A DNA stretch of 35,920 bases, taken from positions 1 through 35,920 of the forward strand of contig JANXRL010000029.1 in assembly GCA_025352985.1 (NCBI GenBank). Reading direction: 5' to 3'. The notes beneath the pieces are model-generated. The model saw only the letters and a program-made list of their open reading frames with translations, did no database searches and was not told the origin of the DNA. Of the stretch, positions 7,189 through 10,215 are shown one piece after another. The first letter of the stretch is position 1. Each line of letters begins with the position of its first letter. The stretch is from Verrucomicrobiota bacterium (lineage in GTDB: Bacteria > Verrucomicrobiota > Verrucomicrobiia > Opitutales > Opitutaceae). Position numbers and translations under genes: made by a program.

Positions 7189-8091
7189 ATGCGCGCGGTG
7201 GTCAAAACCCGCTTCATCTTCAACCCCCGCTCAGGGCACCACGTCGGCAGGCCGCCGCTGCTAGAGCTCACCCGTGCCTTCATGCGCGACCACGCCCCGC
7301 AGGCGAAACTCGTCCTCACGGAGCGCGCCCGCCATGCCAACGAACTCGCCCGCCAGGCAGTCAACGACGGCTGCGAACGAGTGGTCGCCATCGGCGGCGA
7401 CGGCACTCTGAACGAAGTCGCCGCCGCCCTCGTCGGCACCGGCGCGGTGCTCGGCCTCGTTCCCTGCGGCTCGGGTAACGGGCTCGGGCGGCACCTCGGC
7501 ATCCCGCACCCGGATCAGTTCGCCTTCGACACCCTGCGCCATGGCCGCGTGCACGCCATCGACACCGGCACCGCCAACGGGATTCCCTTTTTCAACGCCA
7601 TGGGCATGGGCTTCGATGCCGAGATCAGCCGGCGCTTCAACCAGCTCGCCCGACGCGGCCTCACGTCCTATGTCACAACGATCTGCGGTGCCTTCCCCCA
7701 TTATCGCCCGCAGACTTATCACATCCGCAGTGGCCCGGACTCCCTGATCACCCCGGCCTTCATCATAGCGGTCGCCAACTCCGACCAATACGGGAATAAC
7801 TGTATCATCGCCCCCGGCGCCCGCCTCGACGACGGCCTGCTCGATCTCACCGTCATCCGGCGCGTCTCCTGCCTCAACTCCCTTCCGCTCGTCGGCCGAC
7901 TCTTCACCGGATGCCTCGGCGAAGGCAAAAACATCTCCCGCCTTCGAGGTGCGCATTTCACCATCGGCCGGGCCGCCCCCGGGCTCATCCACACCGACGG
8001 CGAAGTCCACGAAACCGGTGCCATCGTCGAGATCGTCGTCCGCCCGCAGAGCCTGCGCGTCCTCGTCCCGGCCGCCGCCCCGTCGGCGTGA
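7189..8091 (+). CDS. Diacylglycerol kinase family lipid kinase (YegS/BmrU type)
   Basis: The protein has 300 residues. It opens with the nucleotide-binding strand RFIFNPRSG, then the DAGK catalytic motif GGDGTLNEVAAAL (GGDGT at residues 69-73), then VPCGSGNGLGRHLGI. The second domain has the conserved GMGFDAEISRRFNQL segment and DGLLDLTVIRRVS near the C-terminal sandwich. Enzymes of this family phosphorylate lipids such as diacylglycerol with ATP at the inner membrane face, and some use sphingoid or other lipid substrates. Which lipid cannot be told from sequence. The ATG at 7189 lacks a clear Shine-Dalgarno site, and a GTG 9 bases later is an alternative. Confidence 0.9.
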   Translation: MRAVVKTRFIFNPRSGHHVGRPPLLELTRAFMRDHAPQAKLVLTERARHANELARQAVNDGCERVVAIGGDGTLNEVAAALVGTGAVLGLVPCGSGNGLGRHLGIPHPDQFAFDTLRHGRVHAIDTGTANGIPFFNAMGMGFDAEISRRFNQLARRGLTSYVTTICGAFPHYRPQTYHIRSGPDSLITPAFIIAVANSDQYGNNCIIAPGARLDDGLLDLTVIRRVSCLNSLPLVGRLFTGCLGEGKNISRLRGAHFTIGRAAPGLIHTDGEVHETGAIVEIVVRPQSLRVLVPAAAPSA

Positions 8092-8118: not shown

Positions 8119-8147
8119 TTGGCACGACGGCTGCATTGTGCTTTATT
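8119..8147 (+). promoter_or_regulatory. Sigma-70-like promoter upstream of the structured RNA and hsp20
   Basis: TTGGCA (8119-8124, 5 of 6 to the -35 consensus) is followed after exactly 17 bases by TTTATT (8142-8147, 4 of 6 to TATAAT). Initiation would fall near 8154, at the start of the base-paired region and about 270 bases before the hsp20 ATG. Confidence 0.5.
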
Positions 8148-8153
8148 GTTCAT

Positions 8154-8362
8154 GTCTCAATGATCCGGACCCACCAACATCTCCACGGCTACGCCAGCAC
8201 TTCGATCACGAAGGCTGTTGTGATTTGCTGCATCCAGATGCGTCCGTTCGTCGCCCAACAGTGGTCCAAATCCACTCAAGGCACGGGCTCTCAGGCCTAA
8301 ACCTCCGTCCAACGGAATAACGTTTAGCCCAACCTGAAGAAGCCCGTAGGCCCCCAGCCTAA
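8154..8362 (+). ncRNA. Candidate structured RNA: long hsp20 leader or independent small RNA
   Basis: No protein is convincing here, but the strand folds repeatedly. The hairpins are CTTCG-atca-CGAAG (8200-8213), GCATC-ca-GATGC (8230-8241) and AGTGG-7 nt-CCACT (8260-8276). A nested arm has CGGGCT (8284-8289) with AGCCCG (8341-8346), CAGG (8292-8295) with CCTG (8333-8336), CTAAAC (8297-8302) with GTTTAG (8322-8327), and CCGT-cca-ACGG (8305-8315). TAGGC-5 nt-GCCTA (8347-8361) closes the set. GCATCC near 8230 can alternatively pair with GGATGC at 8363-8368. No T-rich terminator follows, which favours a leader of the hsp20 mRNA over a free RNA. I do not recognise it as RNase P, tmRNA, SRP or 6S RNA. 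Confidence 0.5.
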
Positions 8363-8422
8363 GGATGCCACCGCGTATTCCCAACCCACCCGAAAACACC
8401 TTTTCAAATTTCCACTTTTGCC

Positions 8423-8836
8423 ATGAACACGATCATCCACCCGCTCGATCCCGCCCGCTCCGACACCCGCAGCCCAAACGCGACGGCACCCGTTGCCGCC
8501 GCCCGGAAGCCGCACTACGACTGCCGCGAGCAGGACGACACCCTCCAAGTTGTCATCTACGTGCCTGGCGTGGACGCCTCCGGGGTGGAGATCACCACGC
8601 GCGGCCCCGACCTCACCGTCACCGCGCGCAAGACCCACTTCGTCCGCATTAACTGGCAGTCGCTCCACCTCGAAGGCGCGCAGCGCGACTACGAGCTGCG
8701 CCTGCGGCTGGGTCACGGCTATGATTACACCGCCCTTCAGGCCGAAATCCGGGATGGTGTCCTCACCCTCACCCTGCCCCAAAAACAGCCAGCAGCCTTC
8801 GCCACGCGCACCAACCCTCCGCAAAAAGTCGCCTGA
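8423..8836 (+). CDS. Small heat-shock protein, Hsp20/alpha-crystallin family
   Basis: The protein has 137 residues. The alpha-crystallin domain covers about residues 33-118, with YDCREQDDTLQVVIYVPGVD, then VEITTRGPDLTVTARK, and the closing motif AEIRDGVLTLTLPQ, which is the conserved A-x-x-x-G-V-L signature. The C-terminal I-x-I oligomer motif is not evident. Such proteins hold unfolding clients as ATP-independent cytoplasmic chaperones. The 330 bases upstream contain a promoter-like element and a long structured leader, suggesting control at RNA level, but no ROSE or FourU element was recognised next to the start codon. Confidence 0.88.
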   Translation: MNTIIHPLDPARSDTRSPNATAPVAAARKPHYDCREQDDTLQVVIYVPGVDASGVEITTRGPDLTVTARKTHFVRINWQSLHLEGAQRDYELRLRLGHGYDYTALQAEIRDGVLTLTLPQKQPAAFATRTNPPQKVA

Positions 8837-8876: not shown

Positions 8877-10215
8877 TATGAATCCGGAGACCTAGGCGAC
8901 AAGTTGCCCGGGGACGTAGGTTACACTGTGGGGCATATGCCCTGGAAAATCACGACCCCAATGGAAGAGTTAACCCGATTCATCGCGCTGGCGCAGACGG
9001 AGCGTTTTGCGCTCACGGAGCTGTGCGAGCAGTTTGGCATCAGCCGGAAGACGGCCTTACAAGCATCTGGAACGCTACGCGCTCGGAGGCTTTAAAGCCC
9101 TGGCCCCGAGATCCTCGCGTCCGCTGCACAGTCCGGCCAGCGCCGAAGAAGCGATCACCGTCTTGATCCTCGCGGAGCGGCGTCTGCACCGCGCATGGGG
9201 GCCGAAGAAGCTGCGCGTGATGCTGGAGACCCGGCACGGCATCGCCCCGCCGGCCGGCGTGCACCACGATCACCGGGGTGCTGAAGCGACACGGCCCGAG
9301 TGTCCGCCGCCGACGGCGTCCCGGCGTTCATCACACCGACGCCCACGGCTGCACCCAGGCGACCCAGCCCAACCACGTCTGGACGGTGGACTTCAAAGGC
9401 TGGTTCACCCTCGGCGACGGGCAGTGCTGCGATCCTCTCACGGTCCGCGACCACTACATCCTCTGCACCGACGGCTCTGCCCAACCACCAATACAAGGGC
9501 ACGCTGCGCATCTTCCAAGGCCTGATGCGCCACCACAGACTGCCCGAGGTGATCCACTGCGACCTCGGTTCGCCCTTCGTCTCACGGCCTGGGCAGGCTC
9601 TCCGCCCTGAGCGCCTGGTGGGTTGGGCAAGGCGTCGAAGTCGAATTCAGTCGGCCAGCCTCTCCCCAGGACAACGGCACTCACGAACGCAGGCACCGGG
9701 ACCTCAAAGCCGAGGCTATCCAGCCACCTTCGGTCAACCTCCGCGCCCAACAACGCCGCTTCGAACGCTGGCGTCATGAGTTCAACCACGAACGTCCCCA
9801 CGAGTCGCTGGGCCAACGCACCCCGGCCTCGGTTTACCAGCCCAGAGCACGCCGTCTCAACGAGCATGACAGGCCTCTGGTCTATCTCTCCGGCCAGGAG
9901 GTTAAGACCGTGTCTTCCAGCGGATACCTCTGGCACGACGGCCATCACTACTTCGTCGGCGAAGTTTTCGCCGGCAAACAGCTCGCCCTTCATCAAAGCT
10001 GCGAGGGCACCACCGAACTCCACTTCGCCAATCTCCACCTCGGCAACCTCAACTACGAGCCGGAAGTCGCGCGATTCCGGCCTCCGGCCTACATCGCACG
10101 CCCTCCGATCCCACCCTCCCAACCACCAGAACCCAGCCTCGACTATCAAATCTATCTCGATCAAGTGGCACCCATGTCTCCGGACAGTTTGTCACCTAGG
10201 TCCGGATCATACCCG
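8873..10215 (+). mobile_element. Decayed IS481-family insertion sequence
   Basis: The ends are long imperfect inverted repeats. The left end is 8873-8925. The right end is 10166-10215, whose complement starts CGGGTATGATCCGGACCTAG, matching the left end except for small gaps. Inside each end two copies of a CCTAGGT/CCCATGTCTCCGG-like box are spaced by about ten bases, the usual layout of IS481 transposase sites. The only gene inside is the broken transposase. No target-site duplication is evident, which fits an old insertion. Confidence 0.85.

Follow-up and report, generated by a model that had tools for sequence, protein, structure and literature searches.

The intergenic stretch at positions 8119-8422 of the window (the whole 35,920-nt stretch of DNA analysed here, to which all coordinates refer) separates a diacylglycerol-kinase-like gene (7189-8091, Pfam DAGK_cat) from the small heat-shock gene hsp20, and raises the question of how it might govern the chaperone gene that it precedes. 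An initial annotation, made from the sequence alone, placed here a promoter followed by a densely base-paired RNA into which no protein fitted, and offered a temperature-responsive leader, an attenuating leader or an independent RNA as its identity. Comparison with relatives supports a structured regulatory leader of hsp20, on the strength of conservation, covariation and invariable linkage to hsp20. We also find what that annotation did not see, a short ORF whose reading frame is kept across the family while its peptide is not. From these comparisons, the region probably acts in cis, as a translated mRNA leader through which the passage of ribosomes is coupled to hsp20 expression. Its parts are the following.

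8119-8135, + strand: sigma-54-type core promoter, TTGGCACGACGGCTGCA, with GG at 8121-8122 and GC at 8133-8134 (motif counts in 127 leaders).
8137-8146, + strand: second conserved promoter block, family consensus TGTGCATGGT, in the window the TTGTGCTTTAT region (per-position counts).
About 8146, + strand: transcript start, predicted from the sigma-54-type motif.
8160-8300, + strand: leader ORF of 46 codons, MIRTHQHLHGYASTSITKAVVICCIQMRPFVAQQWSKSTQGTGSQA (from translation), with frame, start and stop kept.
8160-8251, + strand: RNA domain I, comprising P0, P1 and P2 (covariation).
P0, + strand: helix of the start-codon region, CGGAC 8166-8170 with GTCCG 8242-8246 and AUGA 8160-8163 with UCGU 8248-8251.
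P1, + strand: CATCT 8178-8182 with AGATG 8236-8240.
P2, + strand: AGC and CTTCG 8196-8204 with CGAAG and GCT 8209-8216.
8284-8346, + strand: compound hairpin around the ORF stop codon (TAA 8298-8300), with helices CGGGCT/AGCCCG, CAGG/CCTG, CTAAAC/GTTTAG and TCCGT/ACGGA (covariation).
8348-8360, + strand: small hairpin AGGC/GCCT (predicted folds).
8363-8381, + strand: small hairpin GGAxGC-CACY-GCxTATTCC with a Shine-Dalgarno-like purine run, seen in genus members and variable elsewhere.
8382-8422, + strand: C-rich, G-poor unstructured segment before hsp20 (composition; family positions).
8423-8836, + strand: hsp20, encoding an Hsp20/alpha-crystallin family small heat-shock protein (PF00011, E 1.9e-11).

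In a first alignment, the block conserved among relatives starts at TTGGCACG-N4-CTGCA and extends through the 46-codon ORF. This starting motif supplies a GG-N10-GC core that is present in 112/127 leaders aligned on TGG, and the strict sigma-54-type motif occurs in 98 of these 127 compared with 10/1300 random 43-nt windows. It sits 38-46 nt 5′ of the ORF start in nearly all leaders, is followed by the second conserved block, and is present in 10/10 loci picked by an RNA model alone. The exact word TTGGCACGN5TGCW has only two occurrences in the 2.88 Mb genome that contains the window. This genome encodes RpoN as two pieces (Sigma54_DBD) at two contig ends, along with several sigma-54 activators (enhancer-binding, Sigma54_activat proteins). 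Judged by its motif, the leader promoter is of the sigma-54-like class. The TTGGCA/TTTATT pair with 17 bases between, earlier read as the promoter, is present in the sequence, and its first hexamer is shared with the sigma-54-type motif. As a sigma-70 promoter it does not hold up: a sigma-70 scan of the leader returned no site, and the TTTATT -10 hexamer is not conserved among the 127 leaders. A search for an upstream activator site for sigma-54 gave no convincing candidate, with the enriched words apparently deriving from a conserved neighbouring gene. In many leaders, two TGCA words (TGCA-N3-TGCA, window 8131-8146) overlap the -12 region, a possible operator or second promoter element.

The impression of a densely base-paired RNA is borne out by folding. 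The segment 8154-8425 folds at -75.1 kcal/mol (z -3.73), and none of 200 shuffles was as stable. Across the family, leader folding has a mean z of -4.5, with 125/126 leaders below -1, and the stop-codon hairpin on its own has a mean z of -3.4. The nested arm of CGGGCT/AGCCCG, CAGG/CCTG, CTAAAC/GTTTAG and CCGT/ACGG that had been picked out by eye lies in the predicted fold of 8284-8346, covaries, and recurs in relatives, where the hairpin encloses the stop codon in 129/130 leaders; the stop codon is enclosed with at least two of its bases paired in 93% of leaders compared with 30% of shuffles. Among 87 aligned sequences, 95.6% of the hairpin's cells pair and two-sided changes occur at 12 of 16 pairs, counts that lean towards the hairpin since the alignment was fitted to the structure, and with which single folds agree. 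Its covariation score is 0.156, compared with 0.057 for shuffled alignments and at most 0.041 for slid partners.

Single folds supplied domain I, which we then tested on 73 leaders in a plain sequence alignment, where 83.8% of cells are paired, 10 of 23 pairs show two-sided changes, and cells with such changes number 59 compared with 18.6 expected. Its covariation score of 0.127 likewise exceeds the shuffled value (0.070) and those of slid partners (at most 0.065), so that in the comparison with hsp20 upstream regions of relatives, which the initial annotation had proposed, both domains beat their controls. We regard domain I as less certain than the stop-codon hairpin because RNAalifold, run on the same 73-leader alignment, returned 4 pairs only and did not propose it, and because our own tree-based, R-scape-like test of all columns against all found no pair below E 0.05. 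The top-ranked pairs of that test include real helix pairs. We relied instead on explicit structures with shuffled and slid controls, since the null of the tree-based test distributes substitutions uniformly among columns whose rates differ greatly. An arm-swap energy test favoured native pairs in 97% of cases and was not used as proof, being biased by the choice of arms from the native fold. Searches of Rfam with the leader gave no family at gathering score, and one chance CRISPR-repeat match with E values allowed up to 10. A switch between alternative pairings of GCATCC with GGATGC, once suspected here, is not conserved in relatives: the two are complementary in only 2/10 genus members, and in the conserved structure AGATG pairs with CATCT (P1).

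No protein was thought to fit the region, yet the family preserves the frame of the 46-codon ORF at 8160-8300. Start, stop and frame are conserved in 130 leaders, with lengths mostly of 43-50 codons and a stop codon that may be TAA (94), TGA (31) or TAG (5). Gaps counted between independent close pairs of leaders are multiples of three in 27/29 cases within the ORF compared with 10/87 in the 75 nt past its stop (Fisher 6e-16). Frame 0 lacks an internal stop in 130/130 sequences, and the other frames are stopped in 122 and 60. These 130 sequences came from a protein profile, which favours intact frames, and we therefore also checked ten loci picked with the RNA model; nine of them had escaped the protein profile at E 0.001. 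An ORF of 44-48 codons with its end in the hairpin region is present in each of the ten. For eight it could be read off directly, for one (L225) once the model was shifted by one base, and for one (L223) from the printed sequence, the last having 48 codons with its stop four codons later. The N-terminal peptides are unrecognisable in most of the ten. At three further loci (L047, L049 and L186) the ORF frame or start appears broken, through real loss or assembly error.

What is conserved in this ORF is not the amino acid sequence, since pN and pS are about equal and third codon positions are not more variable than the others. Among genus members the ORF has a pN of 0.213 and a pS of 0.215, and hsp20 a pN of 0.169 and a pS of 0.455; synonymous sites are thus about twice as constrained in the ORF as in hsp20, and purifying selection on ORF amino acids was not detected. 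Family-wide, variability is flat over codon positions, and between distant members the third position is among the least variable. The few near-invariant residues include W, K and G, and invariant residues use single codons despite available synonyms (GGC 124/126, ACG 115/126, AAG 112/126) and coincide with RNA stems. The peptide matched nothing in Pfam or NCBIfam. Synonymous sites of the ORF are, on these comparisons, held by something other than the peptide, and selection acts on its frame, start and stop but not on its amino acids, a pattern which suggests that it is the act of translating the leader ORF, rather than its product, that controls hsp20. A good Shine-Dalgarno sequence is absent at both the ORF and the hsp20 starts in most genomes. 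Coding on the opposite strand was considered and rejected: within the ORF, two antisense frames are closed in 115-118/126 leaders, the third is open in 111/126 but, once a further 60 nt are included with the ORF, in only 62/126, and there is no periodicity over codon positions.

By comparison of hsp20, the window genome groups with named relatives, Rariglobus and other Opitutaceae, in the Verrucomicrobiota. The leader region was found by DNA search in about 20 of 94 related genomes at E below 1e-8, and the ORF profile matches 140/250 sampled family genomes, spanning 34/49 genera. About 110 of the 250 have no ORF-profile match, in part through incompleteness or divergence, many of the genomes being draft metagenome assemblies. 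In 188 genomes of the class outside the family, the ORF profile yielded nothing but three weak partial matches. A model of the stop-codon hairpin matches 121/250 family genomes at one place per genome, and phylum-wide (240 genomes) it recovers 12 family members and one marginal match outside the family (G465:C20:23406-23487, E 0.003). With rare exceptions the element is single-copy per genome. At every fetched locus with the ORF, hsp20 is the next gene on the same strand, mostly after a gap of 70-160 nt, and no plasmid-borne relative was found. As far as these searches reach, the element is essentially confined to Opitutaceae and always lies upstream of hsp20.

Three genomes of the same genus (loci L039, L042 and L043, in G002, G012 and G007) match neither the RNA nor the ORF model. 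They keep hsp20 and the sigma-54 motif with a different ORF of 33 codons, which suggests a leader that has been replaced or evolves fast. The window genome itself has a second, distant Hsp20 (G000:C116:13909-14244) without this leader, the RNA model matching this genome once.

We propose that a sigma-54 RNA polymerase would transcribe the leader together with hsp20 into a single mRNA. To start on the leader ORF, a ribosome would have to open domain I; it would then cross this domain and terminate within the hairpin that holds the stop codon. Its passage, and the speed of that passage, could decide how the downstream segment folds, and whether the C-rich stretch is exposed to nucleases or Rho or can be used by the next ribosome. 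The possible outputs are accordingly a new fold ahead of hsp20, an exposed C-rich stretch, or re-initiation, and any of them would make hsp20 output depend on how translation fares under stress. If ribosome movement is the signal, one would expect just such an ORF, bound to be translated yet almost free in its sequence. A bolder version, which we put forward tentatively and hold at less than even confidence, is that the leader acts as a chaperone-specific sensor of translation: with an ORF selected for its translation but free in sequence, a start codon that is closed and a stop codon held in a hairpin, hsp20 synthesis would register how ribosomes initiate and terminate during proteotoxic stress, at a step that follows sigma-54 control.

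The earlier suggestion of an attenuating leader for hsp20 may hold, and a Rho-type attenuator would be a specific form of the translated leader. If the ORF were left untranslated, Rho would load on the C-rich stretch and halt transcription before hsp20; translation of the ORF would protect the RNA, which would explain a conserved frame without a conserved peptide. C makes up 42% and G 7% of window positions 8368-8422. Family-wide, however, the excess of C over G is moderate (median C:G 2.3, above 3 in 34/126) and the C-rich stretch is short in many genomes, and we consider a Rho-type attenuator somewhat unlikely. Attenuation by an intrinsic terminator would call for a GC hairpin with a U run, and none was found after the stop-codon hairpin on the + strand, where the hairpin is followed by GTAGGCCCCC with no U run.

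An RNA thermometer, in which heat would open the leader, is attractive at this position because small heat-shock genes are classic thermometer targets (review PMC9111926). A temperature response at the hsp20 start is not what folding predicts: most of the region from -12 to +3 stays open (pairing 0.37), with little difference between the values at 20 °C (0.41) and 48 °C (0.33) in 63 leaders. The likeliest target would be the ORF start codon within P0, affecting hsp20 indirectly. This codon is predicted to be paired for the most part (0.74 at 37 °C), in a helix with compensatory changes, and in our folding model it is more likely than the hsp20 start to be the temperature-sensitive point, but its predicted pairing moves only from 0.79 to 0.69 between 20 and 48 °C. 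With no match to ROSE or fourU either, a thermometer seems unlikely to be the main explanation.

A functional small protein, encoded by the ORF and produced alongside Hsp20, with RNA structure of secondary importance, might seem the natural reading of a start, stop, frame and length kept in about 130 genomes, of a protein profile that finds the family, and of near-invariant W, K and G residues. Invariant residues, however, are written in single codons where synonyms exist and coincide with RNA stems, the peptides of RNA-selected relatives have drifted at their N-termini, and pN equals pS where a selected protein should show constraint relative to synonymous sites, all of which makes a small protein very unlikely. 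More doubtful still is that the hsp20 leader is processed into a small RNA with a trans-acting or dual role: this is a conserved, highly structured and stable 200-nt RNA with conserved loop sequences, and sigma-54 promoters drive several known sRNAs, but a U-rich terminator is absent after the hairpin, and an independent RNA, as once entertained for this locus, is disfavoured because the leader is attached to hsp20 at every locus examined.

Small heat-shock genes are usually under heat-shock sigma factors and simple RNA thermometers. If the translated-leader model is true, a chaperone would here be controlled in a further way, by a leader in which a sigma-54-type promoter is combined with two covarying domains and an ORF whose frame is conserved but whose sequence is free. 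In working, the leader is closest to translated leaders and attenuators; in position, it is closest to the thermometers of small heat-shock genes, without their defining features. ROSE and fourU thermometers are likewise structured 5′ leaders directly before an hsp20-family gene, but they hide the heat-shock gene's own Shine-Dalgarno sequence, whereas here the hsp20 start is predicted to be mostly unpaired, the structure lies instead in a translated ORF further upstream, and the leader lacks an Rfam match. Attenuators and the erm-type, tnaC-type and Rho-acting leader ORFs, in which translating a short ORF determines how the RNA downstream folds, share with it a short translated ORF in a structured leader before the regulated gene, its stop codon lying in a hairpin or adjacent to one. 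Unlike these leader-peptide systems, it lacks a run of regulatory codons, a conserved stalling peptide and an intrinsic terminator; its amino acids drift freely, and its start codon lies in a covarying domain. A sigma-54-type promoter for a small heat-shock protein has a counterpart in E. coli ibpB, whose sigma-54 transcription is cited in PMC4370416, and the IbpA COG is listed in the sigma-54 regulon survey PMC12316311; the passages of these two papers that concern ibpB and IbpA do not describe a comparable translated leader. Our search of the open-licence literature found no description of the Opitutaceae hsp20 leader. An ORF of this kind is rejected by standard tests (dN/dS, protein families) although its translation is, by its frame, clearly selected, and the model is directly testable in cultivable Opitutaceae.

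The surroundings of the unit vary. In 98/129 loci the upstream neighbour carries a MazG-like motif (REWEQFH) in place of the window's diacylglycerol kinase, and in one of the loci (L096, 139-516, - strand) the MazG-like neighbour is divergent. Because most of the family has this other neighbour, the promoter, leader and hsp20 appear to form a unit independent of upstream context. Just past hsp20 in the window, at 9007-9776 (+ strand), frameshifted remnants with a weak HTH_32 match under the curated cut-off resemble a transposase, and apparently represent a decayed insertion element.
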